From Blastocatellia bacterium (GTDB taxonomy: Bacteria; Acidobacteriota; Blastocatellia; UBA7656; JADIYM01): a DNA stretch of 64,000 nt. The position numbers and the translations under genes are program-made. The notes under the pieces were generated by a model that did no database searches, was not told the origin of the DNA, and was given only the letters and a program-made list of their open reading frames with translations. Location of the stretch: contig JAJTWZ010000014.1 in assembly GCA_021463145.1 (NCBI GenBank), forward strand, positions 1-64,000. Reading direction: 5' to 3'. Shown here one piece after another: positions 4,265 to 57,144 of this stretch; the first letter of the stretch is position 1; every line of letters starts with the position of its first letter.

Positions 4265-5524
4265 CTATTCGCGAAACCGTTCGATCTGTCCGCCGACCGA
4301 CCGCAGCTTCTCTTCGATCTTCTCGTAGCCGCGATCGATGTGGTAAACGCGGTCCACGATGGTCTCGCCGTCCGCGGCGAGCCCCGCGACGACCAATGAA
4401 GCGCTCGCGCGCAGGTCCGACGCCTGCACCTTCGCCCCCGTCATCCGCCCGCCGCCCTCCACGATCGCCTGCTTGCCCTGGATGTGGATCCGGGCGCCCA
4501 TTCGAGCGAGTTCCGAAGCGTGCATGAACCGGTTCTCGAAGATGTTCTCGGTGATGACCGAAGTGCCTTCCGCCCGCGTCATCAGCGCCATGTACTGCGC
4601 CTGCATGTCGGTCGGGAAGCCGGGGTACTCCTGCGTCACGATGTCGAGCGCCTTGAGCCCGCCGTTTGCGTGGACGTTCAACGTGAACTGGTTCGGCTGT
4701 TCGATGTGGACGCCAGCCTGGCGCATGTGCGCGATGACCGAGCCGAGATGATCCGGCCGGCAGTTGCAGAGCTCGAGTTCGCCTCCGGTAAGCGCGGCGG
4801 CTGCAAGGAACGTCCCCGTCTCGATGCGATCGGGAATGATCGTGTGACCCGCGCCGCCCAGCTTCTCCACTCCCTCGATGCGGATCGTCGACGTGCCGGC
4901 TCCAGTCACGCGGGCTCCCATCTTGTTGAGCAGTTCGGCGAGGTCCTCGATCTCGGGCTCGCGCGCGGCGTTGTCGAGCACCGTCACGCCCTCGGCAAGG
5001 GACGCGGCCATCATCAGATTCTCCGTCCCGGTAACAGTGATCTTCGGAAAGAAGACGTTGGCGCCTTTCAAGCGGCCGGCGCGGGCGACGATCGTGCCGT
5101 TCTCGAGCGAGATGACCGCCCCCAGCACCTCGAGCGCCCGAAGATGGAGGTCGACCGGCCGCTGGCCGATCGCGCATCCGCCCGGCAGGCTGACTCGCGC
5201 CTCGCCGAACCTGGCGAGCAGCGGGCCGAGCGCGAGAACGGACGCCCGCATGCTCTTCACGAGCTCGTATGGCGCCTCGAAGAACTCGATGTTCGAGGCC
5301 GTCACCTTCAGCGTAGCCTGTTCAGGCATCAGGACGCCGCAACCGAGGTCCTCGAGCAGGCGGCGCATCGTGATGATGTCGCGAACGTAGGGCAGGTTGT
5401 GGAAGGTTACGGTCCCCGAAGAGAGCAGGGCGGCAGCGAGGCACGGAAGCGCCGAGTTCTTCGCTCCGCTGATCTGAACGCGTCCTTCCAGAGGACGCCC
5501 GCCGACGATTCGAAATTTGTCCAT
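4265..5524 (-). CDS. murA: UDP-N-acetylglucosamine 1-carboxyvinyltransferase
   Basis: A 419-aa MurA, which transfers enolpyruvate from PEP to UDP-GlcNAc in the first committed step of peptidoglycan synthesis (cytosol). The N-terminus [14 protein letters not shown] and catalytic Lys22 (SGAKNSALP) are present. The active-site loop [14 protein letters not shown] carries Cys117, the residue attacked by fosfomycin. Full family length. The start at 5524 matches the family; the frame stays open far upstream but that extension runs antisense through another gene. Followed at 22 nt by the HIT gene. Confidence 0.97.
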
Positions 5525-5601
5525 GGTTCGAGCCGCGGATGCTACCACATCGCAACGTCGCCGGCCGGCCATCCTGTCGCCCCTTCGGTGCTGCGTCGGC
5601 G

Positions 5602-5610
5602 TGCTATACT
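5602..5610 (+). promoter_or_regulatory. Extended -10 promoter for the coiled-coil protein
   Basis: TGCTATACT matches the extended -10 form TGnTATAAT. No good -35 is seen, as is common with extended -10 sites. The start codon is 37 nt downstream, preceded by a GAGGTGAG ribosome site. Confidence 0.5.
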
Positions 5611-5647
5611 GCGCCCAAGTCACGCTTTTCTTCGCGAGGTGAGTGTT

Positions 5648-6529
5648 ATGTCCATACGCGCACTGTTGCCAGCAGCCGTGTTCGTGGCGCTGTTTTCGGT
5701 GAGCCCTGCTTTCGCGCAGGATCCCAAGAATCCACCGCCAGACGAACCGACTCCCACAATGACCACAGAGGACGTCATTCCCGTTCAGGTAGCTCCGGCC
5801 GCGGACCCGCAGGCGGCCGATGCTCCGGCAGCCGACGACTCGATGACGCCAGAGGAACGCGCCGACGCAGCCGCATCGGCCAAGGCTCCGGGCGGTGACG
5901 AAGGTCAGTCCGATGCAGCCGCCCCGAAAGGCAAAAAGGTTTCGCAGGCGGAGCTCGACTGGCGCAACAGATACTCCGAAGCCGACGAGGCCGCAAACGC
6001 GGCCGAGCGCGCCGCGCTCGATGCCGAGCTTCGCGCCAACCAGATGAAGAACGAGCTCGCTGGATCTTCGACCGTTGCGGAACGGAACAACGCGGCCGCC
6101 GCGCTCGAGGCTCAGGGCGAAGAGGTCCGCCGGCTGCGGGCAGAAGCAGCCGCAGCCCGCGCCGAGGCAAATCGAGTCAAGGCAGTTGGAGATCGTGGCC
6201 GATTCAAGCCTGACGCTGGCCCTTCCGCTACGACCAAGGACGGCGCGATCAATCCGGCCTACTTCGCTCTGGGTGTCCAGAACGCACGCACCAAGGTCGC
6301 GGATGCCGAACGTCGCATCGAGGTCTACCAGAGCCGAATCGTCGAACTGAGGGGACGAATCCTGCAGACGACCGGTTCTGGCGACAATTTCGCAGTCGCC
6401 AAGATCAAGGATGAGCTCGCACAGGCGGAGGCGGATCTTTCCGATGCACAGGCGGCCCGCGACGCGGCGCAGGTGCAACTCGACCAGGCGCAGACAGAGG
6501 CCAGCGCCGCGGGTGTGCGGGTTCCGTAG
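5648..6529 (+). CDS. Exported Ala-rich coiled-coil protein, function unknown
   Basis: A 293-aa protein with a clear signal peptide (MSIRALLPAAVFVALFSVSP, cleavage near AFAQ at residue 23). An acidic Pro/Ala-rich segment (about 25-105) is followed by long Ala/Glu/Arg heptad stretches (about 108-175 and 208-285), predicted coiled coil. Likely periplasmic or envelope-attached. A strong Shine-Dalgarno, GAGGTGAG, fixes the start. It diverges from murA, leaving an intergenic region of about 120 bp. No enzyme motif is visible. A structural role in the cell envelope is only a guess. Confidence 0.75.
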   Translation: MSIRALLPAAVFVALFSVSPAFAQDPKNPPPDEPTPTMTTEDVIPVQVAPAADPQAADAPAADDSMTPEERADAAASAKAPGGDEGQSDAAAPKGKKVSQAELDWRNRYSEADEAANAAERAALDAELRANQMKNELAGSSTVAERNNAAAALEAQGEEVRRLRAEAAAARAEANRVKAVGDRGRFKPDAGPSATTKDGAINPAYFALGVQNARTKVADAERRIEVYQSRIVELRGRILQTTGSGDNFAVAKIKDELAQAEADLSDAQAARDAAQVQLDQAQTEASAAGVRVP

Positions 6530-26077: not shown

Positions 26078-27103
26078 TCAGGCCTCCGCGAGATGACGGT
26101 GCAGGTACTTCGTGATCAGGTAGCCGAGCTGGAATTTGAACGGGAACCTGCCGCTCGTGTAATGCCCGCACCTAAGGGTCGCGCGGTCGACCGGAATCTC
26201 GTGGTGACGGAACTCGGCGAACGCACGCTCCGAGAGGTGCGGCAGAAACGTCAGGTCGTATCGCGCCGTTATCATGAGTCGCGGACGGTGCGGCCGTTCG
26301 TGTTTCAGCCGATGTATGAAAGCGTTCGGGCTGATCGGCATCCACGCATCGCGAAGTGTCTCGAGGTCGATGCGCTGCTCGATACCGGCGCGGACGTGCC
26401 TGGTCGAGATTCCGGTCCAGACTACGTCTGCAAAGAAGCTCGACACGTGGTTGAAGACGCCGACGCGCAGTCGCGGCTCGTGCACGTAGGCGAGGAAGGC
26501 GATACAGGATCCAATGGACGTGCCGGTGATCCCAATCTGCGTGTAACCCCGGCGCTCGAGCCAGTCCACACAACGCCGAACGTCCATTACGGCCTGCCTG
26601 CAGGCCTGCAGCGTCCGCCCGACGTTTCCGCTGACCATGTAATCGGCGCGCTGGAGCTCTTCAGGCATCCGAACGTCGTGATAAGGCAACGAGAGCCGCA
26701 GCGCCGAGATGCCGAATCGCGCGAAGATCTGTCCGAGCGCGACGTGGCTCTCGGAATCGGCGTTCCATTGCGGCAACACGATCACCGCCTTCTTCGACGG
26801 CCGCCGTGACGGAATGTAGCGGGCCGTGACGGTGTTGTTAACTTCCCAGCGCGTCGACAGGGCGCTCGAAAACCGGAGGCGCTCGCCGTCGAATTCGGCG
26901 TCCTCGAGCGCAGGCGTCGCGAAATAGGCGTCGCTGTCCTCGAGGGCGCGTGCGACGAAACGTGAAACGCGGGCGTCTTCCGTCTCGCCAGGAATCGGGG
27001 CGAGGTCGAGAAACTCCGCGCCCCACTCGAAGGGACGGACGACGCGATTCGTGTCGACGGACGAGAGGTAACGTTCGCGGCGGTGGATGAACTTTCCGAG
27101 CAT
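26078..27103 (-). CDS. Alpha/beta hydrolase-fold protein
   Basis: A 341-aa protein with the nucleophile elbow GTSIGS (Ser in GITGTSIGSCIAF), a likely catalytic Asp in ARYDLTFLP and a His in RCGHYTSGRFPF. A long N-terminal region (about 1-100) precedes the fold. No signal peptide, so cytosolic. It may be an esterase or acyl-transfer enzyme; substrate unknown. It is the first gene of a pair with the epimerase-like gene. Confidence 0.8.
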   Translation of the reverse strand: MLGKFIHRRERYLSSVDTNRVVRPFEWGAEFLDLAPIPGETEDARVSRFVARALEDSDAYFATPALEDAEFDGERLRFSSALSTRWEVNNTVTARYIPSRRPSKKAVIVLPQWNADSESHVALGQIFARFGISALRLSLPYHDVRMPEELQRADYMVSGNVGRTLQACRQAVMDVRRCVDWLERRGYTQIGITGTSIGSCIAFLAYVHEPRLRVGVFNHVSSFFADVVWTGISTRHVRAGIEQRIDLETLRDAWMPISPNAFIHRLKHERPHRPRLMITARYDLTFLPHLSERAFAEFRHHEIPVDRATLRCGHYTSGRFPFKFQLGYLITKYLHRHLAEA

Positions 27104-27245
27104 TGCGCGAGAGATTGTAGCAAAGGCGACCGGACGAGTGTCCCGGCCGCCGGTTCGGCCAACCTGGTTTTGATTCGGACCACTTCATGGGCGTATTCTC
27201 TTCTCCTCTGCCCCACGATCCTGGCCCCCAGACCGGGACGTCACC

Positions 27246-29612
27246 ATGAAAAGAATCACTCCATTTGTCCTTTCGACGCTCGTACTCGCGTCGTTCATCG
27301 CTCCACTTCCGGTAGTTCGCGCCGACAATCCGGCGATCGCCATTGCTGTCGACGTGTCGGCCAGTCGCCGCCCGATCAATCCGCTCATCTACGGTCTGGC
27401 CTACGCCGATGCCGCTCAACTCGCCGATCTGCGCTGCCCATCCAACCGGCGGGGCGGCAACAACACTTCGCGCTACAACTGGCAGCAGAACTGCGACAAT
27501 CGTGGGAACGACTGGTACTACCAGAGCATTCCTTATGACAGCGCATCGGCTGGAGCGGACGCCGATGCATTCGTGGATTTGAACCAGGCGGGCAACGCCC
27601 AGTCGCTGGTCACCATTCCGACGGTCGGCTGGGTCGCCAGGATTGGGGCAGGCCGTACGAAGCTCTCCAGCTTCTCGATCGCCAAGTACGGTGCCCAGAC
27701 GGGTAACGACTGGCAGTGGTTCCCTGACGCCGGCAACGGAATCCGGGCCAGCAACAACCAGCCGATCACGGGTAACGACCCGAACGACGCCAGCGTGCCG
27801 TCGGACGTCAACTTCCAGCGCGGCTGGGTCCAGCACCTGGTTTCGGTGCAGGGAACCGCGGCAAACGGTGGCGTGCGGTACTACCTGCTCGACAACGAGC
27901 CTTCGATCTGGTTCGGCACTCATCGCGACGTGAAACCGACGGGACCGACGATGGAGGAAATCCGCGACAAGACGATCGCGTATGGCACGATGATCAAGGA
28001 TGTCGACCCCGGAGCGCTGGTAGTCGGTCCGGAGGAGTGGGGCTGGAGCGGCTACCTATTCAGCGGCTACGACCAGCAGTGGGGAGCGGAGCACGGATGG
28101 AGCAACCTGCCCGATCGCGCCGCGCACGGGGGCTGGGATTACCTTCCGTGGCTTCTCGATCAGCTGCGGTTGAACAACCAGAGCACGGGACGCCGGATAC
28201 TCGACGTCTTCACGGTGCATTACTACCCGCAGGGCGGCGAGTTTTCCGACGACACATCCGCGTCGATGCAGGCGCGGCGCAACCGTTCCACGCGCAGCCT
28301 GTGGGATCCCAACTACACCGACGAAACGTGGATTGCCGACAAGGTCAAGCTGATCCCGCGGATACGGGGGTGGGTCGACCAGTACTACCCGGGCACAAAG
28401 ACTGGCATCACCGAGTACAACTGGGGCGCCGAGAACCACATCAACGGCGCGACAGCGCAGGCGGACGTGCTCGGGATCTTCGGCCGTGAAGGCCTGGACA
28501 TGGCTAGCCGGTGGACGACGCCGGCGACTTCTACGCCGACTTACAAGTCCATCAAGATGTACACGAATTACGACGGCGCCGGAGGCCGCTTCGGAGATAC
28601 GAGCGTTTCCGCCACCGTGCCGAATCCGGACATGCTCTCGGCCTTCGCGGCTGAACGGTCGAGCGACGGCGCGCTCACGATAATGGTCGTCAACAAGCAG
28701 GCGGCGGGCGTGCAGCCCGTAAACGTATCGCTCGCCGGATTTGCGGGTACGGGTGTTGCACAGGTCTGGCAGCTCACCGCTTCGAACGCGATTACCCATC
28801 CGGCGAACGTCAACTACACCGGCTCGACGATGTCGGCGACGGTGCCGCCCCAGAGCATCACGCTCTTCGTGCTCGCGCCGGCCGCAGCCAAAGACACGGT
28901 CGGCATTTACATTCCTGCATCCGGCGCCTGGTTCCTGCGCAACGGGAACTCGCCCGGCCCGGCCGACACGGTATTCACGTACGGCGCCGCCGGAAGCGGG
29001 CTCGTGCCAATGACGGGAGATTGGAACGGCGACGGCGTCGTGACGCCGGGCCTTTACCAACCTTCGACCGGCGCGTTCTTCCTCAAGAACGGAAATGGTC
29101 CTGGCTCGGCGGACGCGCTCTTCGGATACGGCCCGGCCGGTCAGAGCTGGATGCCTCTTGCCGGAGACTGGGACGGCAACGGGACCGAGACCGTCGGACT
29201 CTACGATCCGGCCACCGGCGCTTTCTTCCTCCGAAACTCGAATGCTCCGGGGCCGGCGGACGTGGTGTTCTCTTACGGTCCAGCCGGACTGGGCTGGGTT
29301 CCCGTCGCCGGGGACTGGGATCAGAACGGCTCGGACTCTATCGGACTCTATGCGCCGTCGACGGCGGCGTTTTTCCTCAAGAACACGAACAGCCCAGGAG
29401 CGGCGGACGTGGTCTTCATTTACGGCCCGCCGAACGCGATTCCGGTCACGGGCGACTGGAACGGCGACGGCCGTGACACAGTGGGAATATACGTCGCCGC
29501 TTCCGGGGCGTGGTTCCTGCGCAATTCGAATGGCCCGGGCGTAGCGGACATGGTGTTCTCGTACGGTCCGCCGAATTCGACGCCAATCGTGGGGAACTGG
29601 GACGGGAACTGA
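27246..29612 (+). CDS. Secreted GH44 endoglucanase/xyloglucanase with five C-terminal repeats
   Basis: A 788-aa secreted glycosidase. Signal peptide 1-26 (cleavage near VRADN). The glycoside hydrolase family 44 domain (about 30-545) shows the two catalytic glutamates, Glu218 in LLDNEPSIW and Glu390 in GITEYNWGAEN, with VDVSASRRPINPLIYG near its start; family members cut beta-1,4-glucans and xyloglucan. The C-terminus (about 549-788) holds five tandem repeats starting at the GIY/GLY motifs at 552, 601, 650, 699 and 746 (period 49, 49, 49, 47), each with GAWFLRN or GAFFLKN and GDWNGDG-like loops. These Asp-rich loops resemble calcium-binding FG-GAP/VCBS-type repeats. Confidence 0.93.
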   Translation: MKRITPFVLSTLVLASFIAPLPVVRADNPAIAIAVDVSASRRPINPLIYGLAYADAAQLADLRCPSNRRGGNNTSRYNWQQNCDNRGNDWYYQSIPYDSASAGADADAFVDLNQAGNAQSLVTIPTVGWVARIGAGRTKLSSFSIAKYGAQTGNDWQWFPDAGNGIRASNNQPITGNDPNDASVPSDVNFQRGWVQHLVSVQGTAANGGVRYYLLDNEPSIWFGTHRDVKPTGPTMEEIRDKTIAYGTMIKDVDPGALVVGPEEWGWSGYLFSGYDQQWGAEHGWSNLPDRAAHGGWDYLPWLLDQLRLNNQSTGRRILDVFTVHYYPQGGEFSDDTSASMQARRNRSTRSLWDPNYTDETWIADKVKLIPRIRGWVDQYYPGTKTGITEYNWGAENHINGATAQADVLGIFGREGLDMASRWTTPATSTPTYKSIKMYTNYDGAGGRFGDTSVSATVPNPDMLSAFAAERSSDGALTIMVVNKQAAGVQPVNVSLAGFAGTGVAQVWQLTASNAITHPANVNYTGSTMSATVPPQSITLFVLAPAAAKDTVGIYIPASGAWFLRNGNSPGPADTVFTYGAAGSGLVPMTGDWNGDGVVTPGLYQPSTGAFFLKNGNGPGSADALFGYGPAGQSWMPLAGDWDGNGTETVGLYDPATGAFFLRNSNAPGPADVVFSYGPAGLGWVPVAGDWDQNGSDSIGLYAPSTAAFFLKNTNSPGAADVVFIYGPPNAIPVTGDWNGDGRDTVGIYVAASGAWFLRNSNGPGVADMVFSYGPPNSTPIVGNWDGN

Positions 29613-55724: not shown

Positions 55725-56119
55725 GACACGTGGCAGTCCAGCGTGACTGGAAGGAGGGGCGATGGCCCGTGGAGCAGGGCCAACGCCGTCACACCGGATA
55801 CTGCCGGAAGAACTTAACCAATTGCACCGACGCTGACTGCGAACGCGGTCTACCCCCAGACCGGACACTCCCCGTTGTGTCCGGCCCACGCTGGCGAGTC
55901 ACTCGCTCGAGCGACTTCTTCGCCGTTTTCCGCGCCCGCACGGCGACAAACCATCGCCAACCCCTAACTCATCGGACAATTGACCGGTTGACAACGACCG
56001 GCACGAACGACACCAACCGGCCGACCCCGATCAGATGCTCACGTCCTGGACGGCTTCGTCACGTCCGTCAATCGATCGATCGCCTACTGAACGCGACAGA
56101 CTTTCACATCGTCAGGAAA

Positions 56120-56311
56120 TCACGCCGTGCGCCGAAGCCCCTCGAATTTCGTCGGCCATTCTACTTCGTGCAGCGTCCGGCCACTCCTGGCCAGCAGTTC
56201 GCGCTCTAGATCGTTGACGCGAGCTTCGAGAACCGACACCCTTGCAAAAACGCGCTGGACGGTGCGCACGAGCCTATCGAATTCATCACGGGTTGCCTGA
56301 TCGTTGGTCAT
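56120..56311 (-). CDS. 63-aa coiled-coil protein divergent from lexA, probably SOS-controlled
   Basis: A small charged protein starting MTNDQATRDEFDRLV; residues about 8-45 have a heptad pattern (FDRLVRTVQRVFARVSVLEA), predicted coiled coil, and the end is basic (KFEGLRRTA). A strong AAGGAG lies 7 nt before the ATG at 56311, making it a probable real gene. Its promoter carries a candidate LexA site, so DNA damage may induce it. SlyX-like or cell-division-inhibitor roles are possible but unsupported. Confidence 0.7.
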   Translation of the reverse strand: MTNDQATRDEFDRLVRTVQRVFARVSVLEARVNDLERELLARSGRTLHEVEWPTKFEGLRRTA

Positions 56312-56343
56312 CGCTACGCTCCTTCTCGATCTATTTCTCGTGT

Positions 56344-56397
56344 AGGACAAATGTCCAGTGTCCGGCCATATTGCGCTCGAGTCGTAAGTACTGTCAA
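56344..56397 (-). promoter_or_regulatory. Promoter and LexA-type operator of the 63-aa gene
   Basis: On the minus strand TTGACA (56397-56392), an 18-bp spacer and CAATAT (56373-56368). Just downstream, at 56344-56359, is AGGACAAATGTCCAGT (plus-strand reading), whose GGACA/TGTCC arms form a palindrome. The same 16-bp motif recurs at 56433-56448 before lexA. Confidence 0.6.
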
Positions 56398-56424
56398 GAA
56401 GTATTTTTCTGAGCGAGAAACCTG

Positions 56425-56453
56425 TTGATTTCAGGACGATTGTCCAGTATCGT
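56425..56453 (+). promoter_or_regulatory. lexA promoter with LexA-type operator in the spacer
   Basis: TTGATT (56425-56430), 17-bp spacer, TATCGT (56448-56453), 7 nt before the ATG. The spacer is filled by AGGACGATTGTCCAGT (56433-56448), nearly identical to the site at 56344-56359. The GGAC-N4-GTCC form resembles the GAAC-N4-GTTC boxes of other LexA proteins. Autorepression is expected. Confidence 0.65.
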
Positions 56454-56460
56454 GCCGGCT

Positions 56461-57144
56461 ATGGCAGACCTGAACCCGACACAGCGCGCGATTTTGATGG
56501 CGATTTCCAAGGCAGCCGGCGCCGGAATGCCACCCACGGTTCGTGAGCTCGCCGACCAGCTCGACATGAAGCGGTCTACGGTGCATTACCACCTGCTGGC
56601 GCTTCGGAGGGCGGGCTATGTTTCTGGCGAAGGACGCCATCGCGACATCGCCCTGACTGACGCTGCGCTGGGCGCATCGAGCAAGTCTGGCCTTCGCCTC
56701 GCGGGACGTTCGACGCCGGCTCGTGCATCGTCGGCTATCGAGCCGTCATCCGGTATTCCTATTCTCGGCAAGGTCGCGGCCGGAACTCCAATCCTGGCAG
56801 CGGAGAACCACATTGGCGAGCTGTCACTTGGAGCGATGTTCGATGGCAAGGGGCCATTGTTCGCGCTCGAGGTGACGGGAGACTCGATGATTGACGACGG
56901 AATCCACGAGGGCGACTATGCCATCGTTCGCCAGCAACCGACGGCCATTCCAGGCGATACCGTCATTGCAATGATCGCTGACGGCGAAGAGGGCGAAGCT
57001 ACGATCAAGCGCTATCGCAAGGATCGCAACGGAGTCGTGCTCGAGCCCGCAAACGCTTCTTACCGGCCGCTCCGGTTCGAGGGAGCAGATCTCGACCGGC
57101 TAGTCATCCTCGGAAAGCTCATCGGGCTCGTGCGAAAGGTCTGA
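56461..57144 (+). CDS. lexA: LexA repressor (SOS regulator)
   Basis: A 227-aa LexA. The winged-helix domain (1-65, PPTVRELADQLDMKRSTVHYH) is followed by the self-cleaving S24 peptidase domain: cleavage site Ala107-Gly108 (GKVAAGTPI), Ser142 (VTGDSMIDDGI) and Lys183 (EATIKRY). It represses SOS genes and autocleaves on RecA filaments. ATG at 56461 matches LexA N-termini. A duplicated LexA-type site stands in the region shared with the divergent small gene. Confidence 0.95.
   Translation: MADLNPTQRAILMAISKAAGAGMPPTVRELADQLDMKRSTVHYHLLALRRAGYVSGEGRHRDIALTDAALGASSKSGLRLAGRSTPARASSAIEPSSGIPILGKVAAGTPILAAENHIGELSLGAMFDGKGPLFALEVTGDSMIDDGIHEGDYAIVRQQPTAIPGDTVIAMIADGEEGEATIKRYRKDRNGVVLEPANASYRPLRFEGADLDRLVILGKLIGLVRKV

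Follow-up and report, generated by a model that had tools for sequence, protein, structure and literature searches.

The LexA/DinR repressors of Bacillus, Staphylococcus, and Mycobacterium recognize the Gram-positive box CGAAC-N4-GTTCG (PMC9578287, PMC3323433), and the genes for SosA, YneA, DivS, and ChiZ are small, LexA-controlled, and divergent from or adjacent to lexA (PMC6851548). LexA boxes shift during evolution; duplication is thought to drive this change, lexA duplication has been linked to divergence of the motif and loss of the regulon, and 17 reported LexA motifs have been counted (PMC8565304). In the window analyzed here (the whole 64,000-nucleotide stretch of Blastocatellia DNA), a 149-bp gap separates a true lexA gene from a divergent 63-aa open reading frame (Table 1). 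A lexA gene paired with a small divergent gene is a familiar arrangement, and the recognition sequence found between them, GGAC-N4-GTCC, is an unusual one. We consider it probable that GGAC-N4-GTCC is the operator of the window LexA, with copy 2 repressing lexA, copy 1 blocking the 63-aa gene, and the regulon as a whole being small.

Table 1. Features of the lexA region of the window and clean motif sites elsewhere in the genome.
Feature	Position	Strand	Basis and remarks
63-aa ORF	56120..56311	-	ATG at 56311; AGGAG ribosome site; long helix predicted at residues 3-43; orphan
Operator-like copy 1, AGGACAAATGTCCAGT in + strand orientation	56344-56359	-	Sequence; immediately follows the -10 proposed for the 63-aa gene
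Putative -35 of the 63-aa gene, TTGACA	56392..56397	-	Sequence; -10 weak
Likely lexA -35, TTGATT	56425-56430	+	Sequence; weak match, scanner reports none
Operator-like copy 2, AGGACGATTGTCCAGT	56433-56448	+	Sequence and shuffle test; in the lexA promoter spacer
Likely lexA -10, TATCGT	56448-56453	+	Sequence, inferred; seven bases before the ATG
lexA, 227 aa	56461..57144	+	ATG at 56461; A107-G108 cleavage site, S142, K183; recognition helix RSTVHYHL
Clean site	C47:3680		Upstream of a DUF1579 gene
Clean site	C89:3696		Follows a purL-like gene and lies upstream of a 93-aa ORF; intergenic by judgement
Clean site	C121:1992		Between a divergent panE-like (ketopantoate-reductase-like) gene and a 128-aa ORF; intergenic by judgement

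Judged by its sequence, the lexA product is a real LexA. It scored 138 bits against TIGR00498 (cut-off 111), its LexA_DNA_bind and Peptidase_S24 domains (an N-terminal winged helix and an S24 peptidase) both exceeded the Pfam cut-off, and the Ala-Gly cleavage site and Ser/Lys dyad were placed by alignment to solved LexA structures and to E. coli LexA. The likely lexA promoter, TTGATT-17-TATCGT, matches 8 of 12 consensus positions; because our strict scanner required 9 of 12, it reported no lexA promoter, and it reported none for the 63-aa ORF. The 17-bp spacer of the likely lexA promoter contains copy 2, as had been proposed for one of the two motifs in an earlier note on this DNA; the copy overlaps TATCGT by one base. 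No ribosome site was found between this -10 and the start codon (window 56448-56463). Because the ATG follows a TANNNT-like -10 by only seven bases and lacks a ribosome site, the lexA mRNA is probably leaderless.

The earlier note had described two nearly identical 16-bp motifs in the gap; both were confirmed at the positions in Table 1, with mismatches at 2 of 16 positions. GGAC-N4-GTCC by itself is common in the GC-rich window (4 observed versus 2.2 expected). In dinucleotide shuffles, at least one copy per 149-bp gap occurred in 0.125% of cases and two copies in 0 of 20,000, and a pair of 16-mers with two or fewer mismatches appeared in 0 of 400 shuffles of the lexA gap. The pairing in this gap is not chance. 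A distance of 8.48 helical turns places the copies on opposite helix faces, which suits a pair of independent promoters better than a single loop. Two related strings occur elsewhere in the window: GGACAATTGACC at 55974-55985, a one-mismatch relative of the operator past the end of the 63-aa ORF, and GGACGAGTGTCC at 27132-27143, probably by chance, in the gap between divergent ORFs at 26078-27103 (-) and 27246-29612 (+).

In its recognition helix, the window LexA belongs to the Gram-positive type (STVHxHL). With this helix class defined as ST-V/I-H/Q-x-HL and sites counted up to 200 bp upstream of the fetched LexA genes, GAAC-N4-GTTY-like sites were found for 13 of 22 genes with a helix of this type, compared to 0.2 expected from shuffles of this group, and for 8 of 114 others (Fisher 1.2e-7, which is no true probability because the LexA rows are related). 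The genomes sampled as relatives belong to the class or the phylum and all to other families. Upstream of lexA in a genome of the same class (G008) and in another of the same phylum (G121), GGACAAATGTTC and GAACAAATGTTC, respectively, share the spacing and inner bases of the window motif; the exact GGAC-N4-GTCC motif was absent from the closest lexA genes of the class among the sampled relatives. Because the helix is of the Gram-positive type and the box geometry is equal, GGAC-N4-GTCC is best read as a variant of GAAC-N4-GTTC with one base changed per half-site, and it is likely the operator of the window LexA. GGAC-N4-GTCC strings had no match in the literature text searched, a search that would overlook differently written LexA boxes and most subscription papers. 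The lexA promoters of class relatives L044-L047 contain TTTCGG-like elements in repeated copies, which may represent a different, direct-repeat LexA box of the class.

The proposal that GGAC-N4-GTCC is a LexA SOS box survived in part. A putative LexA-type operator pair shared by lexA and the 63-aa gene is well supported by its position, symmetry, and statistics and by the helix type. The regulon fared worse in the refutation test that the earlier note had set, namely a lack of the motif upstream of other SOS genes, which went against it. No GNAC-N4-GTNC site was found within 300 bp of recA, the motif was absent upstream of uvrA1, uvrA2, and lexA2 and from the approximately 200 bp that precede the DnaE2 homology, and the genome contains no Y-family polymerase. 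An SOS regulon under GGAC-N4-GTCC is not supported by these searches of the genome, which combined pattern scans with inspection of single genes. A full regulon in which the 63-aa protein serves as effector is favored by lexA and the operator pair and by the precedent of small divergent effectors such as SosA, YneA, DivS, and ChiZ (PMC6851548), but recA, uvrA1, uvrA2, lexA2, and dnaE2 lack the motif and the other clean sites lie away from repair genes, making it very unlikely.

Genome-wide, the excess of the motif over expectation is modest. Exact GGACRAWTGTCC occurs five times, twice at lexA, versus an expectation of 1.1 for one strand. TGGACANNTGTCCA occurs three times versus 0.20 expected, with a P of about 0.001 that is optimistic because the pattern was picked after the sites were known. 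Only three other clean sites exist in the genome (Table 1), and none has a repair gene beside it. An automatic gene caller predicted low-scoring frames that span the C89 and C121 sites; we judged these frames to be over-extended or spurious. The genes next to these three sites have no known role in DNA damage, and the site in C121, TTGGACAATTGTCCAA, lies within a divergent promoter region and is perfectly palindromic over 16 bp. Both facts would suit a different regulator that controls lexA together with a few unrelated genes (DUF1579, panE-like/128-aa, and 93-aa). We regard such a regulator as improbable, as the motif has the geometry of the LexA box class expected from the window LexA helix and occurs in two copies at lexA only.

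Looser matches were rejected as regulon members. A search allowing one mismatch gave 52/59 matches versus 9/5 for the control, mainly coding background, with most of those inspected lying inside genes, and the GGACAACTGTCC sites in C14, C131, C139, and C159 all fall within coding frames. C14 (L143:11680-12684) contains coding repeats in tandem, spaced mostly by 249 bp, and every repeat carries GGACAACTGTCC. At the end of C139 (L172:1501-1641), a RecA-like fragment joined in frame to the end of a cysteine-desulfurase-like frame is likely an assembly chimera.

The genome encodes a second LexA on contig C162 (184 bits to TIGR00498), about 2 kb from dnaE2 (NF004225, 1252 bits; G000:C162, L144:79-3336 and 5268-5888). 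This error-prone polymerase of the DnaE2 type appears without its usual partner, as ImuB was not found in this genome, which has no Y-family polymerase. In the tree, the window LexA is left without a stable neighbor by its very long branch, and no close ortholog was detected in 396 genomes of the phylum. The window copy is fast-evolving. Two LexAs, one of them evolving fast, fit a picture in which the motif diverged and the regulon shrank after duplication, and the regulon of the window LexA is probably very small.

The evidence for the divergent gene is mixed. Its AGGAG ribosome site is good, as the earlier note held, and the ORF has the highest codon (coding) score among the 152 short ORFs of the window; the antisense frame has a similarly high score. 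The promoter suggested for it just upstream of copy 1 was upheld for TTGACA but not for the putative -10, CAATAT, which lies 18 bp away and is poor. No acceptable ortholog was found in the 396 phylum genomes, where three of four weak matches fall within longer frames of 286-319 aa, and conservation of the gene next to lexA, which the earlier note had proposed as a check, was seen in none of the relatives examined. The missing orthologs, the poor -10, and the antisense score favor a reading in which both copies serve lexA alone, as a strong and an auxiliary operator, with the 63-aa ORF being either no gene or an unregulated one. We nevertheless think this unlikely, given the ribosome site and top codon score and the location of copy 1 near the ORF, far from the lexA promoter, and on the opposite helix face.

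One candidate ortholog, a G020 match (45% over 44 aa), was rejected: it lies about 25 kb from the G020 lexA, in a 67-aa frame overlapped by other ORFs. An identity with BMFP/UbiK (PF04380) was also rejected (21.6 bits versus a cut-off of 37.2, coil part only), and the BMFP, reovirus sigma-1, and PHROG matches are generic coil matches. No NCBIfam, plasmid, or viral relative was found, and inspection revealed no hydrophobic stretch that could form a transmembrane segment. Single-sequence AlphaFold predicted one long charged helix (pLDDT 85), as expected of any coil-like sequence. Shared LexA control of this small divergent gene is plausible. The 63-aa protein may also be an SOS-induced effector, a plausible role suggested solely by position and by analogy to SosA, YneA, and DivS, whose lexA/small-gene layout is similar.

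In the mechanism that we favor, a LexA dimer on copy 2 would cover the lexA promoter spacer and repress lexA (autoregulation), and a dimer on copy 1 would block the divergent 63-aa gene at its start, if that gene is expressed. DNA damage would then lead to RecA-stimulated cleavage at A107-G108 and release both genes. A bolder extension, which we hold as doubtful, is that the duplicated LexA switched to GGAC-N4-GTCC and now mainly controls itself and a lineage-specific, soluble, helical DNA-damage effector of 63 aa and of a new kind (such as a division inhibitor lacking a membrane anchor), with recA and the repair genes outside its control. If the 63-aa protein is induced, an unrelated member would be added to the divergent lexA/effector layout. 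GGAC-N4-GTCC on a Gram-positive-type helix would be a clean one-base step in the GNAC-N4-GTNC series, making the helix-to-box code testable.

Several likenesses and differences to known systems emerge from these comparisons. First, as in Gram-positive LexA/DinR, the window motif is a palindrome of 4-base half-sites with an N4 spacer, the helix is of the STVHxHL type, and the sites lie near the lexA promoter; unlike in those systems, the second base of the half-site is G/C rather than A/T, and a repair-gene regulon was not found here. Second, GTAC-N4-GTAC boxes, which are cyanobacterial and LexA2-type, are equal in geometry to the window motif and different in the second base; in this class, AGTACAAATGTACT immediately precedes the start of two Pseudomonas protegens lexA relatives (L122 and L126), which have another HTH (ASRSVARKHV) and belong to another lineage than the window LexA; the inner bases ACAAATGT of AGTACAAATGTACT are common to copy 1. 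Third, an earlier report from the phylum of the window, by Mazon in 2006, reportedly assigned Acidobacterium capsulatum LexA an alphaproteobacterial-type direct repeat as its box, in contrast to the palindrome here. Finally, as with YneA and SosA, a small gene faces away from lexA across a gap that contains LexA-type operators; SosA, YneA, DivS, and ChiZ have a transmembrane segment and several of them LysM, whereas the 63-aa protein, an orphan, looks like a soluble helix with neither apparent.
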